Assembly (NCBI GenBank): GCA_028753945.1
Contig: JAPNXP010000002.1
Span: forward strand, 3,720,001-3,784,000
Reading direction: 5' to 3'
Length of the DNA: 64,000 bases
From: Hexactinellida sp. DTS-2022
Taxonomy: Eukaryota; Porifera; Hexactinellida
Shown here: piece by piece, positions 4,666-57,748 of the stretch
Position numbering within the stretch: position 1 is the stretch's first letter
Layout: each line of letters opens with the position of its first letter
Program-made: the position numbers and the translations under genes
The notes under the pieces: model-generated
Databases searched by the model: none
What the model saw: only the letters and a program-made list of their open reading frames with translations
What the model was told of the DNA's origin: nothing

Positions 4666-4855
4666 CATTGGTTCTCAAAGTGTGGTACGCGTACCACTGG
4701 TGGTACGCGAGATTATTCTTGTGGTACGCGGAGGTATTTCATTTACGTATATATAGCACAATTTGAATATTATTAAATACCATGCCGTTCTACTTCAGTA
4801 CGTTAAACTGTATTTCGTAAAAGCCAGATAGCTTAGGTTATTAAAAGTTAAAGTA

Positions 4856-7060
4856 ATGGATGGTTGGCTCAATACGGGGACCGTAGGGAAGAGAAGTGGT
4901 GCTGGAAATGACAATATTTCCACTCAAACTGACGAAGAGGAGGACAGTGAAGCGATAGCAAGTGCCCCTGATAGGAGCGTGAGAGAAGTCTGCACGACTG
5001 CCAACGTAATCAGCAAACGTCGCAAAATTATAAGAAAATATGATTCTCGTTATCTCAGTTTTGGATTTAGTTGGAGCGTGACGGATCAAGAGCCCAGGCC
5101 GCAGTGTGTAGTGTGTAGTGATGTTCTCAGCAATGAAAGTATGAAGCCCGCACATCTCATACGGCACCTTACAACCCAACACGCTGTATTAAAAGACAAA
5201 CCGATTGAATTCTTTCAGAGAAAACTTGATGAACTGAAACTGTCAAAGGCAATGCTTCTGTCCTGTGTTACACCCGTAGTCAAAGCACAGGAAGCATCCT
5301 ACCGTGCCAGCCTACGCATAGCCAAAGCCGGTAAGCCACACACGATTGGTGAGGAGCTCTGCCTACCGTTAGCAAAAGAGATCACACACATTATGTGTGG
5401 AGAGAAGGCTGCCAGACAGTTAAACTTGGTTCCGCTTTCCAACGATACCGTCTCGCGTAGAATTGTCGACATGGCAGATGACGTTAAAAGAATACTGATT
5501 GAGCGTATCAACATGAGTCGGTATTATTCAATACAGCTCGATGAGACTACTGACGTAGCAGATTTAGCTAATTTGCTTGTTTATGTCAGATACGAATACG
5601 ATGGTGCTTCTCATGAGGAATTTTTGTTCTGTCAGACACTGGAAACGAGAACTACAGCAGAACACATACCGTATTTATTCGAATAGTAGCCTCTATTCGA
5701 ATAATCGCCTACCTCCAATAATCGCCCCCCTAAAGTAGCAAATAAAAATTTATTACTGCTACCCGGAGTAAACATTTACATCTAATATAACTCACAAAAC
5801 GATTATCAACCGATTATCATAATTAAATTGTAATAAAATGTGATATTATAGAAAATTGCTCAAAATTATTGGTCGAAAAATGGAGTAAAAACAATAATCG
5901 CCTAGGCTACTTACTATTCGAGTAAATACGGTATTTCAGTTATTGAATATGTTTTTTGAAAAGTATTGTCTCGATTGGAAAAAGTGCGTTGGAGTTTGTA
6001 CCGATGGCGCCAGGGCAATGACCGGTCGACACAGCGGTGTAGCAGCTCGAATTCGCGAGGTGGCCCCCGAGATGCAATGGATCCACTGCAGCATTCATCG
6101 CGAAGCCCTGGCAGTAAAGAAAATGCCCGAAGATTTAAAGTTAGTGTTGGATTCAGCTGTAAAAACGGTGAATTTCATCAAGGCACGACCAATGCATTCC
6201 CGTCTCTTTGGTGTGCTTTGTAATGAACTAGGCAGCGAGCATGTCCAACTCTTGCTCCATACCGAAGTAAGGTGGTTGTCAAGAGGAAAGGTACTAACGA
6301 GGCTGTTGGAATTGCACTGGGAGGTTCAGATTTCCTAAAAGACAAACAATTTCCCTTGTCACACCTTTTTGAAAATAGTAAGTGGCTGAGTCAACTGGCT
6401 TACTTGTCAGACATCTTCTCTCGCTTGAACGACCTAAATTTGGGACTACAAGGTCTCTCTATCACTGTATTTGACGTCAATGATAAAATCAACAGTATGA
6501 TAAAAAAGCTGCAGTTGTGTGAGAACAAAATCATGGCATGTGATGTTTCACCTTTCCCCGTTTTGGAGAGTTTTATCTCGGAGAATAACCTGACACTTGA
6601 TAATGATGTCGGAGACAACATTGTAGCGCACATTGTTTCACTGAGACAACAGTTCCGTAATTATTATCCAGTGTCAGCTGAAGTCAACAACTGGATGAGG
6701 AACCCGTTCACTGTCGAAGTCAACGACATGCCTGAGGATTTCAGCACTTGTGATCAGGAGAGTCTTTTGGAATTATCTTGTGCTGAAACGTTAAAGTCCG
6801 ATTTCAAAATAATTTCTTTGTTAGACTTTTGGATACAAAGACAAGGAGAATATCCAGTGCTTTCGGACAAGGCCACGCGGTTTCTTCTTCCATTCGCGAC
6901 TACATATCTGTGCGAGAAAGGCTTCACAAGTCTTGTTGCGATCAAGACAAAATATAGAAGCAGGATGGACGCAGAGCCAGATCAGAGATTGAAGCTAACC
7001 TCGATTGACCCAGACATAGCAATGCTTTGTTCACTGAAGAAGGCGCACCCTTCTCACTGA
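4856..7060 (+). pseudogene. Buster-type hAT transposase, interrupted by a MITE and one frameshift
   Basis: The start is the ATG at 4856, about 190 bp inside the left terminus. A BED zinc finger (CVVC ... HLTTQH) follows an acidic N-terminus. The RNase H-like domain shows LDETTDVADLANLL (first aspartate), then VCTDGARAMTGRHSG (second) and the CxxH-type segment IHCSIHREAL. EVRWLSRGKVLTRLLEL and the C-terminal dimerisation segment (LPFATTYLCEKGF, ending at 7060) follow. The frame ends early at 5686 because a TA-target MITE lies at 5669-5931; coding resumes at 5932. A one-base loss near 6334-6338 shifts the frame (coding moves to the frame of 6272-7060). Domain order and words match ZBED5/FAM200-like proteins and their transposon relatives. 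In this state it is not expected to make active transposase. Confidence 0.9.
5669..5931. mobile_element. 263-bp TA-target MITE inside the hAT transposase
   Basis: The ends are inverted: left CCGTATTTATTCGAATAGTA, right in reverse complement CCGTATTTACTCGAATAGTA. It is flanked by the dinucleotide TA (5667-5668 and 5932-5933). With one TA retained, the codons on both sides read in one frame, so this is a clean TA insertion of the Tc1/mariner/pogo kind. Inner sequence includes AATAATCGCC words and no ORF. A related end is at 14712. Confidence 0.9.
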
Positions 7061-13131: not shown

Positions 13132-14508
13132 AAAGCGCAAACCTAGCGAATGATGTGAAAGTACAACTTGACAATGACTTGTCTGCTGCTCAGTTTATTA
13201 GCATTGCACTTGATGAGTCAACAGATGTCACTGGTTCAGCTCAACTATGCGTCTTCGTTCGATTCATAACAGCTGATTCAATGATTTCTGAAGAGATGTT
13301 GCAACTTATATCGTTGACCACAACTACCACTGGAGTAGATATCACGAGAGCTCTAATAAATTGCCTTAAAGTAAAGAAAATTTCCTTTGACACTTCTTAT
13401 ATTGCTACTGATGGGGCACCATCTATGGTTGGTAGCCATAAGGGACTAGTCTCATTACTACGTCAAAGTGGATTATTCCCTCATTTTGTAGCTTACCATT
13501 GTATTATTCATCAGGAAGCGCTCTGTGCAAAGTATGCCAATATTGAGGATGTAATGTTGACAATTGTCAGAGTCATCAATTTCATTCGTGGACGAGCCAG
13601 GAACAGGAGGGAATTTCAAATCTTGATGCATGAAATGAATTCAGAGTATGGTGATCTGCTGTTACTTTCAGAGGTTAGATGGCTCTCACGTGGACGGATT
13701 CAGGAGAGATTCCGTGTTTGCCTACCACATCCTTGTATTCTTAGAGAACAAAAACAAATATTTTCCTCAGATATACCCATTGAAAACCTTCAAATATAAA
13801 TTGGGGTGCCTCACAGATATCACAGCAAAATTCAATGAGTTGAATTTACGAATTCAAGGAAATGAGCTCCTGTTTGTGATTTAATGTTTGAAATAAATAT
13901 AATGCATAGTAAGTTGAAAGTATTCAAAGATCATTTAGAAAAGTGCAATGTTACTCACTTTCCCAACGAAAGAATACGACAGAAAATGAAGAAGTTGCTG
14001 CTGCTGAGTTGCCTAATTTGCGAAGAATATAGAATATATTATTGAACAATTCGACAGTCGTTTTTCAGAATTTCGTGAAATGAAAAAGAATGTTAAATTA
14101 TTGTGCTATCCATTTGAATTTGAAATTGAAGACCTATCCGATTTGGACCCCCAACTTGACAACGCTGCTGCCGAAATGGAATTATTAACCATTCATTGTG
14201 ATGAGGATCTGAGGAAATTTTGTCCCAAGAAAGATTTGCAAAACAGGTATAGCGATTCTGCAAAGGCATTTTGGGGAAGTGTTAATAAAGAATGCCACCC
14301 TAACATAAAAAAACTAGTAAACAGAATTATGTCAATGATCAGTACGACCTACGTTTGTTAGCATTCATTTTCCAGCATGAAGAATTTAAAAAGTTCTATT
14401 AGAAACCGTCTTTTTAATTCTAACTTAAACAATTTGATGATTGCAGCAACAACACAATATACACCCAATTTCACTAGCTCTGCAGGAAATGAACAAATTT
14501 CACACTAG
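13132..14508 (+). pseudogene. hAT transposase relic (GTF2IRD2/EPM2AIP1-like group)
   Basis: The first part (to 13799) starts just before the catalytic segment: FISIALDESTDVTGSAQL holds the first aspartate, SYIATDGAPSMVGSHKG the second, and YHCIIHQEALCAK the conserved Cys/His motif; SEVRWLSRGRIQERF follows. After a frame change, KLGCLTDITAKFNELNLRIQ continues near 13800-13860. A later part at 14080-14361 reads through DEDLRKFCPKKD-like sequence. An in-frame TAG at 14359 interrupts the C-terminal dimerisation block (HSFSSMKNLKSSIRNRLF continues after it, ending about 14508). At least two frame changes and one stop; the BED finger half is missing. Confidence 0.82.
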
Positions 14509-18592: not shown

Positions 18593-18639
18593 TTCCAATC
18601 GCGATTTGTAATTCAATATAGTAACTTTTTATTGCTTAA

Positions 18640-19359
18640 GGTTAAATTACCCCACGGGAATGAAATCTCTTGTATTAATCTGTAATTGTTAGAAATAGAT
18701 CAAGGTACGATACAAAGCAATAAACAAAAAAGAAAATGTCTCAATATATTATACTTTTTATTTTTTGTCGGTTTCAATATTTGGCTAATACAAATCTCCC
18801 ATAGGGCGATTTCAAAAAGTGGTGGTCGATATTATAGTGTAATTTGGCAATGCGGCCATCAATGTTTGTTATCAGAATCAATATTGAAAGATTATAAGCG
18901 TACGGAGTTGGTAGTCGGTTTACATTTTTGAATTATGACTCTGAAATTATTTTTCAAACATTTTATCAAATATCTCATAAAAAACATGACCTTTTTAATG
19001 ATTTCTGTAGTTCAAAAGGTCGCAACTTTTTTTATTTAGGTCAAATCAAAATTCTAAACCAGTCACCTACAGCATATAACGATGATCTATGTGATATATC
19101 GCACATAATATGTCTTTAGCTAATAATGATCTTGAGATCGACACACTTATCAGGTGGAGTCTGAAGAAATCCCCCTATGGGACTTTTGTATTACCATAAA
19201 ACTGCACGCCCCATAAAATCGAATTTATTCAAAATAATTCGATTTCGTTTTCAGTTTCGATATAGCTATAATGTCTTCTATTATATATGTGAAAATTAAA
19301 CATCTTACTTCAAAACGAAATTTATGTGTTTTTTTACATGAATCTGCCGTAATTTAACC
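18640..19359. mobile_element. TTAA-target MITE, family E, 720 bp
   Basis: Both ends read GGTTAAATTAC inward, bordered by TTAA (18636-18639 and 19360-19363). Internally, CTTCTATTATATATGTGA and ATTTATGTGTTTTTTT near the right end recur at about 38625-38700, and a GTGGGGTAATTTAACC end recurs at 31180. There is no meaningful ORF. Confidence 0.82.
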
Positions 19360-19905
19360 TTAAGCGTAACAGTCTAAGATTTTAAACAGCATCTTTATAT
19401 GCATTTCTAAGAATAACTAGATTTTAAAAAATTCAATTTTCATTATGAAACAAAAATAATATCAGGATTCTATAAATGGCTTCCCATTGACTATAACACA
19501 GTATAATATGCTTAAGTTAACTTAGTAGGAGTTCTTCACAACTTCTATCTAATGGTTATTTATCAAATTGAATTACTTTTGAATATTCTATTCTAGCGAT
19601 AACATTGAAATTAAATTTTTCTCTTCGCTTGTTATACATTTTACAAATTATGTCCAGTTTTCTTCAATAAAGTGCATTTTTTCTCTAATTTTCAATCATA
19701 TAATTTTATCAAATCCCTAATTGCATATTCTACTTCCGATTTTTTGTTCCTCTAAGTATATTGAATAGAATGCCGTTCCAATTTTTCATGTTTATTATTT
19801 TGAAATCCCAAAACTAAGGTTTCTGTATGACCAAAATGTCTGTTTTTTTATTTTGAGATACAACCATTTGAATGTTAGGTTAATATTTGTCGTGATACTC
19901 CACTA
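19360..19905. repeat. segment related to the interior of TTAA family C
   Basis: Bases 19395-19760 parallel 42600-42960 (GCATTTCTAAGAATAACT, AAATGGCTTCCCATTGAC, CTAGCGATAACATTGAA). TTAA followed by GGGTGATTCCAATCGC at about 18590 may be the diverged left end of this element; the right end was not found, probably because the 3.2-kb element begins here. Confidence 0.55.
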
Positions 19906-20308
19906 GACTGTTCAATTTATATTTCTGAAAGAAAAAAATTCCTATTTTAAGGTTGCATACCCTTTTATTTTGTGATATCCATTCAGATTTGATAACTTGA
20001 AAAGTTTTAGAACGATCCGATTAGTCTATCAGACCCCTCAATGAAGTTATATATTTTTAATTTTAGGCCCGTGATACGATAGGCATATTATACTAAAATC
20101 AAATATCGACCATTGTCTCAGCTAGAAGTTGAGTTGTATACCTTTTAGTTTAATTATCAGCGGTCAATTTATTCCAAATTCGAAGCCATTTCTGTTTGTA
20201 CTGAAATGGAAACCTCAATTTCACATATGTATTCATGTGGTTTTCTATTTTCTTTAAACACCTTTAGTGATTTCATGTCAATACATATAAGGATTCGAGC
20301 AATATATG

Positions 20309-20316
20309 TATAAATA
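20309..20316 (+). promoter_or_regulatory. TATA box of the 780-aa gene
   Basis: TATAAATA lies 59 bp before the ATG, and a TCAATACAC segment about 25-30 bp downstream could serve as initiator. Spacing suits a TATA promoter with a short leader. Confidence 0.55.
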
Positions 20317-20374
20317 GTGGAGAACTACAACTCAATACACTAACAAACAATAAGTATTTCTCAAAATCATTTCT

Positions 20375-22717
20375 ATGGCGAAAAAGATTGCTACTCGAGC
20401 TGAAACTAATGTGTGGTTGGTTGGACAGTTATTACCTAATATATCAGATGTTAATGCCACCCAGCTACCCACAGCTGGAATTGTTTTGAGACGGCTGTAT
20501 CATAGCATCAAAATCAAGAAGCTCAATCTATCCCAGAGCTGCAACGAGGTTTCAGTTGAAGTAATGGAGTTTTGGATACTCGCGAACATAGCAACTACAC
20601 AACTTCCCAATGTAGTATCAAGGCTAAAAGCACTTTATAATAAACACGTTTCACTCAGCAGAAACAAACTTCGGCGCAACGAGAGACAGCAACTCCTTGA
20701 AAGTGCATTCACTGCTTCTCTAGCGATGTTATTTGACATCGCCCATTCTAATTGCTCACAGCTCATTCGAATCCCACAGGATCTTGATTTTCTTGAAGAT
20801 CAGCGTTCAGTAAGGAAAATGTCAATGGGAAGTGAGGATAGAGAATTCAAAGTCAAGAATGAAAAACGTATGAAGCGCCTTCAAGACAATTTGAATAGGA
20901 GCCAGCTAGAGGAATCTCGAAAAGTATCCCTTACAGATAATCGTACTGAAGCACCGAGCGATGATGGCCGCGAGCCCGATATTGACGATGCCTCTACCTA
21001 CTCTTCTGATGAGGATGACGTGTTCGCGCTCAGTTCATACCATCGAAAACGCATTATGCTAGAACCCGCTGTGATCCCGCCAGACCCGCCTCTTAAGACA
21101 TTGGAATTGTCTTGTCCCATTCTTGACAAACGCTGCATTATTGATAATGCATTATTCAATGCCAGCCTTGATCGGACAAACACAACTCCTCGCCAGGCAA
21201 TGCATATAGTTGCCCCTGCTTTGGTTGCGGCGGGTGTTGACCTGCAGTCAATCACGTTATCGACCACATCGCTGTATGAAGCTCGAAAGGACACACGAGA
21301 GGCTATTGGAAGCAGTGTGAGGGAGAGCTTTAGCCCGAAAGTCCCACTCATTGTTCACTTTGACGGGAAAATGCTGCCGGATTGCGACGGTGTAAAGGGC
21401 GATCGCATGCCAGTAGTTGTATCGGGTAAATGTGTGGAGAAGTTATTAGGTATCCCCCGCCTGCCTAATACTTCTGGAGAACAGATGGGAAGGAAAATAG
21501 TTCAGTTGTTGCATGAGTGGACGGGAGTCGCTCCACATCTTGCCGGTCTCTGCTTTGATACTACTGCCAGCAATACTGGTATTCATAGTGGGGCAATAAC
21601 GGTCGTCCAAGCAGCTTTCAACCGAAGGCTTCTGTACTTTGCCTGCCGCCATCACATCCTGGAGTTACTAGCGGCTGTAGTGTTTGATTTATTTTTCGTA
21701 TCCTCAGGTCCAGAGATCGCTCTTTTTAAACGATTTAAGGAACAGTGGTCATTCATCGATCAAGATGCCGCTTGTCCTCTGGATGGTGATGCATCTGGAA
21801 ATAGTGCACTTTCTGATCGAGAGTATTCCTGGCTTTTAGAGCACCGGCTTACAGTAATCAAGCTGCTTCAACACCAGATTCTGAACATTCAGCCAAGAGA
21901 GGACTATCGCGAGTTCATCACATTATCTCTTTTTATGCTTGGTGATAAGAGTAATAAACTCCATTTCAGATCACCTGGTGCATATCACCAAGCACGTTGG
22001 ATGGCAAAGGGTATATATTGCCTTAAAATATTTGCCTTACGCCACCAGTTTAAGCTCTCCAAACACGAGTTGCAAGGCCTAAGAAGGATTGCACTTTTTA
22101 CAGTGACAATCTACATCAGAATGTGGGTAACCGCACATGTGAGTATGTTGGCCCCGAGCAGCGACCTTCTCCTTTTGCAGATCCTTGAACAGTATGCTGA
22201 AGTTGACAACCAAATTTCGCAGGAGGGAACCCATAAGATGCGAGGTCATCTTTGGTATTTGAGCGAAGACCTTGTATGTCTTGCTCTTTTTAACGACCAT
22301 CTTGCCATCGAATTAAAGCGCAAGCTAGTATCAGGACTATCTAAGCCTGCAAAACCTAATGACGTTCGACGAGTCGTCCCAACAGCAGTTGCTACATTCC
22401 TAGCAGTGGAGTTGACCGATTTTGTTACATCGCGCTCTCTAAATTTATTTCAAGCCCTCAAACTTCCTAAAGAGTTCCTATCAGTCGATCCGGAAATGTG
22501 GGAAAAACGTGCGGATTACCGAGAAGCAAAGGAAGTAATTCAACATTTGCTAGTTGTTAATGACTGTGCTGAACGTGCCGTTAAGCTCGCAACAGATTTC
22601 AATTTGGCGCTTACCAATGATGAGGAGCAGCGACAATTGTTATTTCAAGTAATTGAATACCACAGAAAACTTGTGCCAACAACTGCTTCGAAACGAATAA
22701 TCACATCCTTAACATAA
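20375..22717 (+). CDS. 780-aa putative DDE/RNase H-fold transposase, uncharacterised invertebrate family
   Basis: A single uninterrupted frame of 780 codons, the longest ORF in the window. I recognise the layout from many unannotated invertebrate proteins but know no official family name. Residues 1-150: helical N-terminus; 150-230: charged, D/S/E-rich linker. The core has VHFDGKML (D330), LCFDTTASNTGIHSG (D395), ACRHHILELL (C424, H427), GPEIALFKRFKEQW, GAYHQARWMAKGIYCLK, HLWYLSEDLVCLALF, VDPEMW and NDCAERAVKL (E733). A D-D-E set with a Cys-x-x-His motif after the second Asp and a long helical insertion before the Glu recalls hAT transposases, but no BED finger or hAT dimerisation domain is seen. 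The start is the ATG after the TATA box. No stop, frameshift or intron is needed. Alternative: a domesticated gene, but long inverted ends favour a mobile element. Confidence 0.82.
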   Translation: MAKKIATRAETNVWLVGQLLPNISDVNATQLPTAGIVLRRLYHSIKIKKLNLSQSCNEVSVEVMEFWILANIATTQLPNVVSRLKALYNKHVSLSRNKLRRNERQQLLESAFTASLAMLFDIAHSNCSQLIRIPQDLDFLEDQRSVRKMSMGSEDREFKVKNEKRMKRLQDNLNRSQLEESRKVSLTDNRTEAPSDDGREPDIDDASTYSSDEDDVFALSSYHRKRIMLEPAVIPPDPPLKTLELSCPILDKRCIIDNALFNASLDRTNTTPRQAMHIVAPALVAAGVDLQSITLSTTSLYEARKDTREAIGSSVRESFSPKVPLIVHFDGKMLPDCDGVKGDRMPVVVSGKCVEKLLGIPRLPNTSGEQMGRKIVQLLHEWTGVAPHLAGLCFDTTASNTGIHSGAITVVQAAFNRRLLYFACRHHILELLAAVVFDLFFVSSGPEIALFKRFKEQWSFIDQDAACPLDGDASGNSALSDREYSWLLEHRLTVIKLLQHQILNIQPREDYREFITLSLFMLGDKSNKLHFRSPGAYHQARWMAKGIYCLKIFALRHQFKLSKHELQGLRRIALFTVTIYIRMWVTAHVSMLAPSSDLLLLQILEQYAEVDNQISQEGTHKMRGHLWYLSEDLVCLALFNDHLAIELKRKLVSGLSKPAKPNDVRRVVPTAVATFLAVELTDFVTSRSLNLFQALKLPKEFLSVDPEMWEKRADYREAKEVIQHLLVVNDCAERAVKLATDFNLALTNDEEQRQLLFQVIEYHRKLVPTTASKRIITSLT

Positions 22718-23062
22718 AAATTTACTAACTATTAATACTATAATTTGGATATTGAAATTGCACATGATATCACTCTAAACAATCTTGATTTAATATTATA
22801 AAGGTTGGGTGTATACTTGAAAGAGAAATCAATACCTTAGTGGAAGAGTCTTGAATAGTTTAAAAACAAATACAGAATATGTGGCAGGAAATAACTGTAT
22901 GTGTCCGAATGTATAAACAATTTAGAAATATTACAGTCTTGAGGGGTCTCTAAATCTTATCGGATCGGCCTAAAAATTAACAACCTAATATATTTCGATG
23001 AGTTTAACAAATTGTGAAGGTATGCGATGTCAAAATCGGAATTTTTTTTTTTCGGAACACCC

Positions 23063-25482
23063 TACTGCTCCTATTCCCGTTCCACAAGCGTCTGTTCCAA
23101 TATGGCAAGCCTGTCTCCAGTCTGGGAAGGCCAATGTGACCGGGTCCCCAGATGACACCCGGCGTAGATGTTGGAATGCCTCCTCGCATCCAGCGTCCCA
23201 ATCCCATTTTACCCCTTTACGCGTGAGAGAATATAACGGCCCAGCTATACTAGCAATGTTCTGGATGTATCAACGATAGTAGTTCACCGTGCAGAGGAAG
23301 CGTTGCAATTGGGAAACTGTTTGCGGCCTAGAGAAGTTTCGCACTCTTTCTACATAGCCATTCAGTGGGCTTCTCCCCCCTCGTGATAGCCAGTGCCTTA
23401 GGAATTCAACGGATTCGAAGCCTAGCTGGCACTTGTCCATCCTCAGTTGCAGCCCCGCCTCGTCCAACCTCTCGAACACCCGAGTAAGGTGGTCAAGATG
23501 TTCCGTAAATGTTTGTGAATACACCAAAATGTCATCCACGTAACTCTCTACGTTGTTAAGCCAATTTAATGCTTGGTCCATTACCCTCTGAAAAGTAGCC
23601 TGGCTGTTGCAAAGTCCAAATGGCATAGCCAACATCTCAAACAACCCACGTGGTGTGTGGAACGCTGTCTTTTCTGTGTCTTTTGGGCGAATTGGAATAG
23701 TCCAGTAAGCAGAAGCCATATCTAACTTGGAGAAATAGTGACTCCCGCGAAGCTTATCAAATATGCTTTGTGGATTCGGTAAGCTGTATTCATCCCTTTT
23801 AGTAATCTTATTCAGACGTCTGTAATCCACTGCGAACCGCAGGCTACCGTCCTTCTTTCTAACAAGGACCACGTCTGAAGCCCAAGGCGACGAGCTGGGT
23901 TTCACTATCGGTGGGCGAGCTGCTAGCATATCCTCTAATTGTCTGTTTATCTCCTCTTCCCACTTCGGGGGAACTCTTCTCGGGCGGCTCTTCTGAGGTA
24001 ACGCGTCCCCAGTCACAATAGCGTGATAAGTTGATAGCTTGGTACGTGACGGTTTCTTGTGATTCAGTGCAAATCCATGATGGAACTTCTCGATAATTTT
24101 CTCGAGCTTAGAGTGTTCCTCACGCGGTAACTTTTGATTAATCAGATTGGGATGCTTTCTTCTGCTAGGATTTTCAACTTCTTCGTCTTGCTTTGCTACT
24201 TGAGCCCTGGCCAGCGGAGTTCCGCCACATATCTCTGTCTCATAGGACTCCCAAGTATCCCCAATCTTGATCCTGCTATTCTGAAAGTCGAATGAAACCG
24301 TACCCAGCTTTTGCATTAGCTGACGGCCGAGAAGCACCGTGGGTTCTTCAGTGTCGAGTACGTGTATTTTCTGCACTACCGGTCTGTGCGAACCAACTTT
24401 TACCTTGGCCATCTTGTACCCCAAGACCTGCACGGGACTGTGCACAGCCCATACACCTTACTAGGCTCGTGTTCTATTATTTGAGTTAGGTTCAGTCTCT
24501 CTACTGTACCCCTGTCAATTATACAAGGTGTTGCTCCAGTATTCAACATTGCTGCTACTTCCTTACCTTGGATTCGTACTATGAGCGTGACTGCGTTCTC
24601 ACTAGTTGACACTTGGTAAACGTTTCCCCTGTCTATCACTTACTTCTTTCCGTAGTTTAAATTACTCTTGGATGGACGGTAGCTGGTGCGGAGTCAGCTC
24701 TGCTTGCATACTGCGCATCTTTTGTGTGGACATTCACGTATGAAATAGCCAGGTTGACCGCAGCCGAAGCACTTCCGTTCTGAGGGCGTTGCCTTCTTAC
24801 TCTTCGGAAACCTAGTATCTGATCCGCGTACGCGAACCGTTTGGACCGTATCCTCATCATCTTCGCTTGACACTGCGTTCTGGTCAGCGCCCGACGTTAC
24901 TTCGATAGTCTTCGCGTAACACACCTTGGGGGAGTTCACACCGCGCCATCCTTTGTGGAGAGGTATCCCTTTACTCTGCAGCACTTGCCGAATCTCCGCT
25001 GCGAATTTGACAGCCCCGTCCTCAGAGAGGTCTGCTATTTGCGGAGTTACCCATTCCTTGAGTTTCGGCTGCACTTCTTGAGGAAGTTGAGTTAACTTAA
25101 ATCTGCAAGCTTGTTTGGGGGTGATCTGTGCTATATTTGCCTCTTCTAAGTACCTCGCGAAGAAATCCATAGCGGTTTCACCAGGTGGCCACGTCATGAG
25201 TCGGAATCTCTCAGTGGCAGCAAATTCGTATGTTTTGGGGTCTAGTCGCTCTATTAGGTATTCGAACGCGGCTTGGAGTGATTCTGTTTCTAGTGCACCT
25301 ATTACCACTTTGCACTCCATTTTCCCTCGATTGATATAAGCTGGCAGTAGTCTGATCGCTGCTTTGGCACCTCCTTCCCCCTGTATTATGGTGGATACCG
25401 CTGCTTCGAAATGTGGTCGCCACGAGGTAATTGTCTGTCCTTCACGCAACGGTGGAATTCCAATGGAGATCGGCGTTGCCAT
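23063..25482 (-). mobile_element. gypsy-type LTR retrotransposon fossil, 3'-truncated
   Basis: On the minus strand, parts occur in gypsy order: gag with a CCHC-like zinc knuckle (25482-24694), an aspartic protease region (about 24639-24400), reverse transcriptase (24445-23270, with the YVDDILVYS active-site block and an FDKL...SKLDMASAYWTI region), then the start of RNase H (words such as GTDACGTGIGAV near 23080). Integrase, the rest of RNase H and the LTRs are not seen. The fossil ends at the inverted end of the 3.2-kb DNA transposon. It is broken, with roughly three interruptions besides the truncation, and looks moderately old. Confidence 0.88.
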
Positions 25483-26108
25483 TTTGTCTGATAGTATTTG
25501 TATTTATGTTGAGAACTTGTAAACAAATGAATAATAAGTTGATTAATAAAATACAAATAAATATAGACATTAGTGAAGTCTAACTAAACACACAATAACT
25601 AGTGCGAGCTAAGAGCAACTACTAAGGTTGGTTAACAATCGACTAAACTATAACACAACTATGATTATATGCATACTTCAATAACTTGCTTATATCTATT
25701 TTTGGCATGTGATTGAATAACTTAAATTTTGGCTTCCTATGTCAGTAACACTGAGGTATCAGAATAAAACGATATTTCAATCCGAAGAAAATGATTCGTA
25801 TAACTCCAAGAAACACAGTGATTAATCATTACCACGAGTACTAAATATTGCAAGTACTTCAGACTTGTAAAATGTTAGGAACATATTCTTTTATTTGATC
25901 CATTAGAAATTGTTAAAAAAGGTCAAAAATGACATTTTTCACCTTCTTCCCCATGTAGTAAATACATAAATTGTTCTTTATGCCCAAAGTGCTTGCAAAA
26001 TAAAGTCTATTTCATATATATATAAGCCTGGAATTTTTGGAGTGTTTGCTTCAGTACTTCAACATAAAATAAGTCAAGGTTTGTCAAAAAATCCCGTTTT
26101 GAGTAAAT
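25483..26108. other. unassigned stretch upstream of the gypsy fossil
   Basis: This is where leader and LTR would be expected, but I could not identify LTR ends or a primer site. AT-rich, no ORF of interest. Confidence 0.4.
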
Positions 26109-55643: not shown

Positions 55644-57748
55644 TTAGCAGTATAGGAATGGATTGAAAAGGCCAGATAACCTCTCACAGATTGCATCACT
55701 TGATCCACAGGACTTACATTTAGTTGGAATTAGTTTTCGGTTTATAGAAGACTCCAGATTAGTGAATACGCTGCCAATATTTCCTATCATATTGGTGGTG
55801 TTAAAGATGTTGGTGCAGTGGTGGCATTTGAAATGGTAATGTATCTGTCGTTGCATAGGTCTTCTGTTCTTAGGAATTGAATGATGTTGCCTTCTGATCC
55901 AAAAAAATTGTATGATTGCATCAAACCAGTTGAATCATATTGAATATCCAGCCCGAGTTGTTTGGCGATATAATCTCGCAGTTCTTCGAATTTATTACTA
56001 GCAGCCAGTTTGAACAGATGGTAGAATTTGGTGTCAGTTGGTGAGGTTCCGATTAAGTTCAATGCATCGAGTATGTTTGCTTTCTTAGAACTTAGGATGG
56101 CTAGGATGTTGTCCACTGAGCAGGTATTGGATTGCATGATGTCATTGTGCTCTCCCCCCCAAATAGGATATACTATTGGTAGTGAAGCAATCTGTGAGAT
56201 GGTATTCAGATGGTTAGATGGTGATGGACTGGTATCGATGGTAATTATCTCTTCTAGTTGATGCTTAGGTGATATTAACTGAATCACAACAGGTAACAGA
56301 ACTGCGAGTGGATAATCATAGTCTTTTCTGATTTGTATTGGATCGTTACAGGGATGGCTATTGCGATATTCGTTGTACCAATTAGCGGTAGCGATGACGA
56401 TCGATTCTTTGGTCGTAAAATCTAGTTCAGTCGATGGATGGTAATCGTATAGTGATTTTAGTGATGTTAGTGATTCAGCTTTGGTGGGGAGCGTTTATGT
56501 AGTGGGGTTAGATAGGTACGGTTGTTAAGGGCTGTTAATACTTGAGGTTTTATGGTTGTTAGTGTAGCATCAATACTTTCTTCTGTTCCTCGTTGTTCAG
56601 GGATTTCATAGATTTCTTCAGTTGCTCCTAAAGTCAGGGCAGTGGCGTAGCCAGTTTTTACGGACTGGGCCTTCATAGTACCTGCGGCTTTGCCGTAGGG
56701 CCTGCAAATTATATTACGATCTCGTTTATTTATCACTTGCTGATTTCTTATTACGTAGTTTAAAACATGATTTATCTAAGAGGAAAAGCTAAATACCCCA
56801 CATGCACAAGTATAAATGAATGCAAGCTACAAGCAGAACTTAAGATAATGAAATCGTTTAAAGGTTTAAAGTAATAAAAAGACAACTGACACGTACCACC
56901 ATATTACTAATATTCCAAACCAAATATAATACAACATACCATTTGTAATTAGTCCAGCTCTAGATAATTAAGTGTTGTCGCATTTTCAGAAGAATAAATT
57001 CTGAAAATGCGCAGGCCCAGTTGGGCCTGCGGGAATTTAGTTTGGGCCTGCCGGCAGGCCCTGCAGGCCCATTGGCTACGCCCCTGAGTCAGGGTCTCCT
57101 CAAATGGTTCTAAATGAAATCAAATAAAGTGTGTTTAAAAATATGCTGAAATCCAAATGCTGTGCGGGACATATTGCAGACAAGATCTATCCCGCAATGA
57201 TACCACGGTTCCTCTGGAGGGGCGATGGGCTGGAGTTCGCGCTGAGGCTGAGGTAACAGAGCGGCAGAATTCTGGCAGGTGTGGCAAGTTTTGATCTAAA
57301 TGACGAACACTAATTATAAATGAATTCTCTTGAAATTAATGCGAAAAGATAGCTTACAAATTCCCCGATGTCGTTGTAAATGCCACTCCAATCGTATTTG
57401 TTTCGAATCCCGTCAAGAGTAGTATTGATTCCGGGGTGGGTGACATTGTGGTAGAAGCCAATAATGTCATTTATTTCTGTGTCAATTGGAATCTCGAGAT
57501 ATTTTAAGGTTCCGTTCTTCTTCCTCAGCCTCTAAATAAAATATTGATTAGAAATACCATCTGAAAATAGTTTGAGAAATTATCACCTTCATCAGTTTTT
57601 GGTCTTGAACGCAAATTCCCTTGCACTTCCTGATAAAATTCTTCTTCTTATAGCGATCATTCTTGATTTCGCTAGGAATCTCTTGAGTCTGGAGGTATCC
57701 AAGAACTGTCTGATACTCGCTCGCATCCATAATAATTGTCAATGTCAA
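55644..57748 (-). pseudogene. Ginger transposase gene: integrase start, introns, unknown C-terminal domain
   Basis: The ATG at 57748 (or 57730) starts exon 1, with YQTVLGYLQTQEIPSEIKND and QKLMK before a GT donor at 57586. Exon 2 (57531-57358) has the zinc-binding FYHNVTHPGINTTLDGIR; introns are 55 and about 61 bp with GT-AG ends. Exon 3 (from 57295) gives CHTCQ, completing HHCC, and WYHCGIDLVCN with the first catalytic Asp. The rest of the integrase core is missing. After a hAT MITE (56640-57086), a long frame (56287-55787) reads ATANWYNEY upstream, then IVYPIWGGEHNDIM, SNTCSVDNILAIL and LFKLAASNKFEELRDYI. Next come CHHCTN and CKSCGSSDAICERL (about 55830-55680), a possible zinc ribbon. A Cys followed by VDNIL recalls cysteine proteases (OTU/USP), a resemblance only. 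Broken; several interruptions. Confidence 0.68.
56640..57086. mobile_element. hAT-type MITE, 447 bp, inside the Ginger gene
   Basis: Ends CAGTGGCGTAGCCA and CAGGGGCGTAGCCAATGGGC (reverse complement), 8-bp duplication AGTCAGGG (56632-56639, 57087-57094). GGGCCTGC repeats occur at both inner ends. Ends match the MITE at 15464. Confidence 0.92.

Follow-up and report, generated by a model that had tools for sequence, protein, structure and literature searches.

A probable hATm-type DNA transposon encoding a divergent transposase in a glass sponge genome

To which group of mobile elements does a transposase belong when domain libraries do not recognize it? This question is raised by a 780-amino-acid protein encoded in a single frame (positions 20375 to 22717, + strand) of a 64,000-nucleotide stretch of the Hexactinellida sp. 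DTS-2022 genome (contig JAPNXP010000002.1, positions 3,720,001 to 3,784,000; hereafter, the window). A preliminary description had proposed a DDE-type transposase with a hAT-like layout, without the hAT zinc finger or dimerization domain and with no accepted superfamily name. Searches of Pfam, NCBIfam, PHROGs, and PDB sequences with the transposase returned nothing usable. Using hmmscan with E values up to 10, we found no Pfam transposase family, PF05699 included, in seven of seven members of the family or in the distant relative L080, a negative that should be read knowing that HMMER filters discard most weak matches. A BED finger had no Pfam match in any member scanned, nor did the MULE, KDZ, or P-type Pfam domains match the family; the hAT zinc finger and dimerization domain thus both go unrecognized by Pfam, as had been described. 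The weak matches listed, GumK_N and DYW_deaminase among them, fell below the curated cutoffs (best E, 0.024), and the single match in the PDB sequence search (E, 2.2) was judged to be due to chance. No relatives were found in viral contigs or prokaryote genomes, and the one eukaryote genome searched was the element's own.

The length of the target duplication and the terminal sequence can classify a transposon where Pfam cannot. As set out below, the element is quite probably an autonomous hAT-type DNA transposon that moves by cut and paste; within hAT, it most probably falls in the published hATm group. The transposase is a very divergent hAT relative, so the element adds to a known kind and does not found a new superfamily. 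A type of protein that the domain libraries searched do not recognize thereby receives a probable name and exact ends.

Ends, copies, and target duplications

The element had originally been placed at positions 19906 to 23062. It is real, and comparison of copies moved each of its ends two bases further out: the copies in the window and on contigs C1 and C5 all start with TAGACTG and finish with CACCCTA, and their break points are identical, so we set the transposon at 19904 to 23064 (+ strand, 3161 bp). Its left terminal inverted repeat, starting with TAGACTG, spans 19904 to 20063 (+ strand), and the right one, ending with CACCCTA, spans 22919 to 23064 (− strand). The two arms are imperfect, with 70% identity across 141 bp (19923 to 20063 versus 22919 to 23057). 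The description of one 780-codon frame between imperfect inverted repeats therefore holds, with repeats of about 140 bp. A possible TATA box, TATAAATA, can be read from the sequence at 20309 to 20316 (+ strand), 58 bp upstream of the start codon.

We searched the genome (112.4 Mb in 18 contigs) for further copies and scored 58 of 162 candidates, so that the copy count is a lower bound. At least 84 stretches match the transposase, two of which are full length and stop free, namely, the window's own and the one on C1; the element is thus more than a chance arrangement. The C1 copy (C1:2445013-2448173) differs from the window copy at 14 positions over 3161 bp (99.6% identity), and 10 of these differences lie inside the gene, where they alter five amino acids. 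The copy on C5, 3134 bp long, has 12 mismatches and gaps that include a run of 25 missing bases, and its transposase match is broken into two parts.

Comparison of loci divided the family into subfamilies A (the window element), B (L033 and L008), C (L034 and L024), and D (L035 and L036). Subfamily E came from a search with the C protein and is represented by L080 (C11:7196171-7198216), which is 22% identical to the C protein and intact, with a frame open for 751 codons. Together with L081 and L082 it makes up C11:7195629-7198902, where the inverted repeats, about 360 bp long, are 99.4% identical and the target duplication is 8 bp. The ratio of dN to dS between subfamilies was uninformative because dS is saturated.

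Both ends could be placed in 10 copies (this excludes L005, L013, and L014), and eight of these, drawn from all five subfamilies, are flanked by a perfect 8-bp target duplication. These are ATACAGCT (C1 copy) and ATGCAAGG (C5 copy) in subfamily A, AGCTTCAC in B, TGGGGTAA and ATGCATGC in C, CTCTTTAG and ACAACTAT in D, and ATGCCCAC in E. A ninth copy, L008 of subfamily B, carries a 9-bp duplication, ATGTTCTAT; no duplication flanks the window copy. Comparison of copies with their flanks, which the preliminary description had suggested, thus yielded both common ends, with three copies ending at the same bases, and target duplications in 9 of 10 copies.

The termini of the subfamilies are also alike. 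The heptamer TAGGGTG occurs at 8 of the 10 subfamily termini (both ends of B, C, and E, the right end of A, and the left end of D), the exceptions being the left end of A (TAGACTG) and the right end of D (TAGTGTG). The window element itself therefore has the TAGGGTG/CACCCTA type at its right end only. The hAT terminal consensus, Y-A-R-N-G, has an A at position 2 and a G at position 5. Among our 10 subfamily termini, the A is present in all 10 and the G in 9; only TAGACTG, at the left of the window element, lacks the G.

We also looked for insertion sites that lack the element. When the flanks of the C1 copy were fused so as to keep the duplication once, five places, among the 24 matches listed, matched from position 1 or 2 to position 200 at 90 to 99% identity. 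These places are paralogous empty sites: the C1 insertion site occurs elsewhere without the element. The other site tried, that of the D copy L035, gave a best match of 78% across positions 46 to 198. A search with the left end for nonautonomous derivatives gave nine matches, three of them known full copies, and among eight loci set against the element (five from the left-end search and three older ones), we saw no short two-ended derivatives of MITE type.

The window copy and its neighborhood

The window copy had been called intact, which is correct for the element itself and not for its flanks, given that they lack a target duplication. The 8 bases at its left (TACTCCAC, 19896 to 19903) have no counterpart at the right, and the 8 bases at its right (CTGCTCCT, 23065 to 23072), which lie within a Gypsy-like repeat, have no counterpart at the left. 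The left flank is part of an AT-rich repeat that has 32 matches, and the Gypsy-like repeat at the right has 7 (both counts include the window). We read one other copy of each repeat; different sequence follows the left repeat there and precedes the right one, so the two flanks seem to come from two insertion contexts. Given that these flanks derive from different repeats, the most likely history of the window copy is recombination between two insertions or loss of one flank since insertion.

A wider reading, limited to this copy, adds a misassembled composite to these two histories and holds that the copy does not stem from an insertion at this spot. We regard this reading as tentative. The missing duplication speaks for it, as do flanks belonging to two unrelated repeats that each continue differently in the other copy read. 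Misassembly in particular is opposed by the intact ends and frame and the near identity to the C1 copy, which itself has a perfect duplication and empty sites, although these leave room for a misjoin. Nothing that we found argues against the recombinant or flank-loss versions.

Several other repeats surround the element. A MITE-like repeat of about 720 bp (18636 to 19364) has inverted ends, GGTTAAATTAC...GTAATTTAACC, and carries TTAA at either end. It also occurs within a broken A copy (L004, positions 546 to 1273) and served as the target of the C-subfamily insertion L034. We examined frames of at least 220 codons for neighboring transposase genes. Broken hAT-like genes are present at 4832 to 7060 and 13134 to 13799 (+ strand); within these, the frame at 6227 to 7057 matches PF05699 (E, 1.6e-7), and those at 4832 to 5683 and 13134 to 13796, which have no Pfam match at an E value of 0.001, look hAT-like by eye. 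Gypsy-like frames adjoin the right end of the element (23270 to 24457 and 24694 to 25503, − strand) and by eye are reverse-transcriptase-like and zinc-knuckle-like. A further frame of 235 codons (55787 to 56494, − strand) has no Pfam match at an E value of 0.001. The genome as a whole holds diverse DNA transposons within its 112 Mb, with at least 150 scored matches each to the Dimer_Tnp_hAT, MULE, and P-type RNase H domains and seven to KDZ.

Conserved residues and profile comparisons

The transposase gene was defined by its open frame and by its copies and relatives in the genome, from which we compiled 36 locus rows. Several rows cover the same copy, and the denominators below are the rows that reach a given position. 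The putative first catalytic Asp, D330 (HFDGKML; codon at 21362 to 21364, + strand), is kept in 32 of 33 rows, and the putative second, D395 (FDTTASNTG; 21557 to 21559, + strand), in 32 of 34. In the CxxH motif, CRHH (21644 to 21655, + strand), C424 is kept in 32 of 34 rows and H427 in all 33, and the putative catalytic Glu, E733 (NDCAER; 22571 to 22573, + strand), is kept in 30 of 30. These five residues lie where the preliminary description had put them, and each is conserved across the genome's locus rows. An additional pair, R541-W542 (21995 to 22000, + strand), absent from that description, corresponds to the hAT "RW" motif and is kept in 29 of 32 and 31 of 34 rows. The N-terminal part of the window protein contains no CxxC pair; in the same part of L080, a CKC...CRC cysteine cluster stands at the place of the window family's LFDIAH. 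Single-sequence structure models of the full protein and of residues 316 to 445 (pLDDT, 37.1 and 41.9) were too poor to use.

To relate the family to hAT transposases, we built a hAT profile from eight open reading frames chosen from 18 hAT loci of the same genome (L037 to L046 and L047 to L054). L051, a near copy of L049, and L037, which is partial, were excluded, and L038 to L040, L042 to L044, and L046 were outside the selection. The family profile matched these eight hATs weakly (probability, 7.3%), with D395, C424, and H427 falling on invariant hAT residues. A 20-row family profile scored 40.05 against them, a value reached by none of 100 column shuffles (mean, 15.5; maximum, 23.5), and again placed D395, C424, and H427 in register. 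In the long alignment of this profile, which lacks L080, D330, R541/W542, and E733 fell off the corresponding hAT residues.

L080 supplied the connection for the first Asp and the RW pair. It is homologous to the family across 686 columns (probability, 99.4%), and when compared alone with the hATs it scored 36.97 (0 of 100 shuffles). Its D313, D392, C421, H424, R523, and W524 align to hAT D118, D183, C235, H238, R291, and W292, the last two being residues of L045, and the family's D330 and R541-W542 align to the D and RW of L080. Because L080 registers all six residues and is homologous to the window family, we consider that the family's first Asp and RW match those of hAT. The position of the Glu is less consistent: a C-terminal comparison with the 20-row profile placed the ER pair on the hAT ER, although 9 of 100 shuffles reached its score, and once L080 was added, the pair was out of register with hAT.

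The strength of the match depended on the hAT set used. When the hAT set consisted of three DUF4371-type hATs and a hAT-like piece from the window, the family scored 44.1 (0 of 60 shuffles), and the family with L080 scored 49.5 (E, 6.5e-5; probability, 64%), compared with a probability of 3.6% for L080 alone. Against a nine-sequence hAT set, the scores were 42.0 for the family and 45.7 with L080 (0 of 60 shuffles each). The three DUF4371-type hATs alone gave a probability of 11.4%, and five Ac/Buster-like hATs alone gave 0.3% (score, 21.1). Two subsets of the genome's canonical hATs matched each other at 97.4%. Control comparisons with the genome's own MULE and P proteins, for which the profiles were shallow, gave scores of 15.8 and 16.2 for the family, 17.0 and 19.0 for the family with L080, and 19.1 and 15.4 for L080 alone, next to the average of 15.5 for the hAT column shuffles. 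The block from the second Asp to CxxH is not unique to hAT, however, because hAT versus MULE itself scored 33.6.

Taken with the duplications and termini, these results support the earlier proposal of a DDE-type transposase with a hAT-like layout, carried by a DNA transposon. They do not support the statement that it has no accepted superfamily name, given the hAT-type duplications, the published hATm termini, and the alignment to the hAT profile, in which invariant residues coincide. A named superfamily could thus largely be matched, an outcome that the preliminary description had listed as refuting it, though the confidence of the match is not high (best probability, 64%).

The low probabilities leave some weight to a separate DDE superfamily, sister to hAT, with DNA-binding and multimerization parts of its own but with a CxxH core, RW motif, and 8-bp stagger like those of hAT. 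We consider this unlikely. It would account for the lack of a BED finger and PF05699 in every member scanned and for profile probabilities that range from 0.3% to 64% by hAT set, versus 97.4% between canonical subsets; the six hAT invariants that precede the Glu are, however, all in register in L080, and the termini and duplications equal those of hATm, which the paper describing it assigns to hAT (PMC6004678). A related and slightly more probable view, still doubtful, concerns the lineage that includes L080: it may combine a hAT core and hAT ends with the absence of the BED finger and the intertwined dimerization domain, as either a sister superfamily or a basal branch. Its transpososome would then be built differently from that of hAT.

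MULE, P element, and KDZ transposases are RNase H-type DDE enzymes. Membership in one of these other CxxH superfamilies (MULE, P, or KDZ/Zisupton) is very improbable, because, although CxxH is common to several superfamilies (PMC4763223) and the hAT and MULE profiles resemble each other, the family compares with MULE and P at noise level (shallow profiles) and lacks Pfam matches to domains of MULE, KDZ, or P type, all three of which occur in the genome.

Comparison with known hAT systems

Our preferred reading therefore remains that of a hAT-type element, and its mechanism is, by analogy, ordinary for hAT. What we observed for the family are exact ends, the length of the stagger, and clean empty sites for one copy. 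If the biochemistry of the hAT transposases Hermes and Kat1 applies, the transposase would bind the terminal repeats and nick at the 5′ ends, the flanking DNA would close as hairpins, the element would be released, its 3′ ends would be joined to target DNA with an 8-bp stagger, and repair would convert this stagger into the target duplication. For Kat1, hairpins are reported to require the CxxH motif (PMC4763223).

Relative to canonical hATs (Hermes, Kat1, and the Ac/Buster/Tip elements), the family has the same 8-bp duplication, Y-A-R-N-G-type ends, and order of D, D, CxxH, RW, and a putative catalytic Glu, whereas its sequence similarity to them is very low and it has no recognizable BED finger or Dimer_Tnp_hAT domain. 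An N-terminal BED zinc finger is common, though not universal, in hAT. The unrecognized dimerization domain is the one point of interest; if it is truly missing, the family would offer a naturally occurring way to ask which components of the hAT transpososome can be done without. In Hermes, W182 stands two residues after the first catalytic Asp. Its equivalent in Kat1, W312 (PMC4763223), has no Trp counterpart in the family. Closer likeness is found among the DUF4371/Dimer_Tnp_hAT hATs of the same genome (L049, L052, and L054), whose profile match is clearer than that of the Ac/Buster-like set; it covers 83 columns, taking in the second Asp and CxxH, and has a one-residue gap between these two motifs. 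These hATs carry DUF4371 and PF05699, in contrast to our family, in which Pfam matches neither.

Proteins like the window transposase may occur in Daphnia, aphids, and Hydra. The name hATm is used in work on Hydra and Daphnia as well as on an isopod, a sea louse, a siphonophore, and a fungus. hATm itself is a proposed fourth hAT family with more than 74 Repbase entries (PMC6004678, Mob DNA 2018). The same paper states that hATm-6 carries PF05699 at its C terminus, a domain unrecognized by Pfam in our family, and the left end of A (TAGACTG) and the right end of D (TAGTGTG) depart from the hATm heptamer. We say "probably hATm" rather than assign the family firmly because PF05699 was not found and because the likeness comes from termini and duplications, not from protein comparison. 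As published, hATm elements have 5′-TAGGGTG/CACCCTA-3′ ends, as do 8 of our 10 subfamily termini, duplications of 8 or 9 bp, as in 9 of our 10 copies, and, in two elements, terminal inverted repeats of 417 and 575 bp, next to about 360 bp in subfamily E (PMC6004678).
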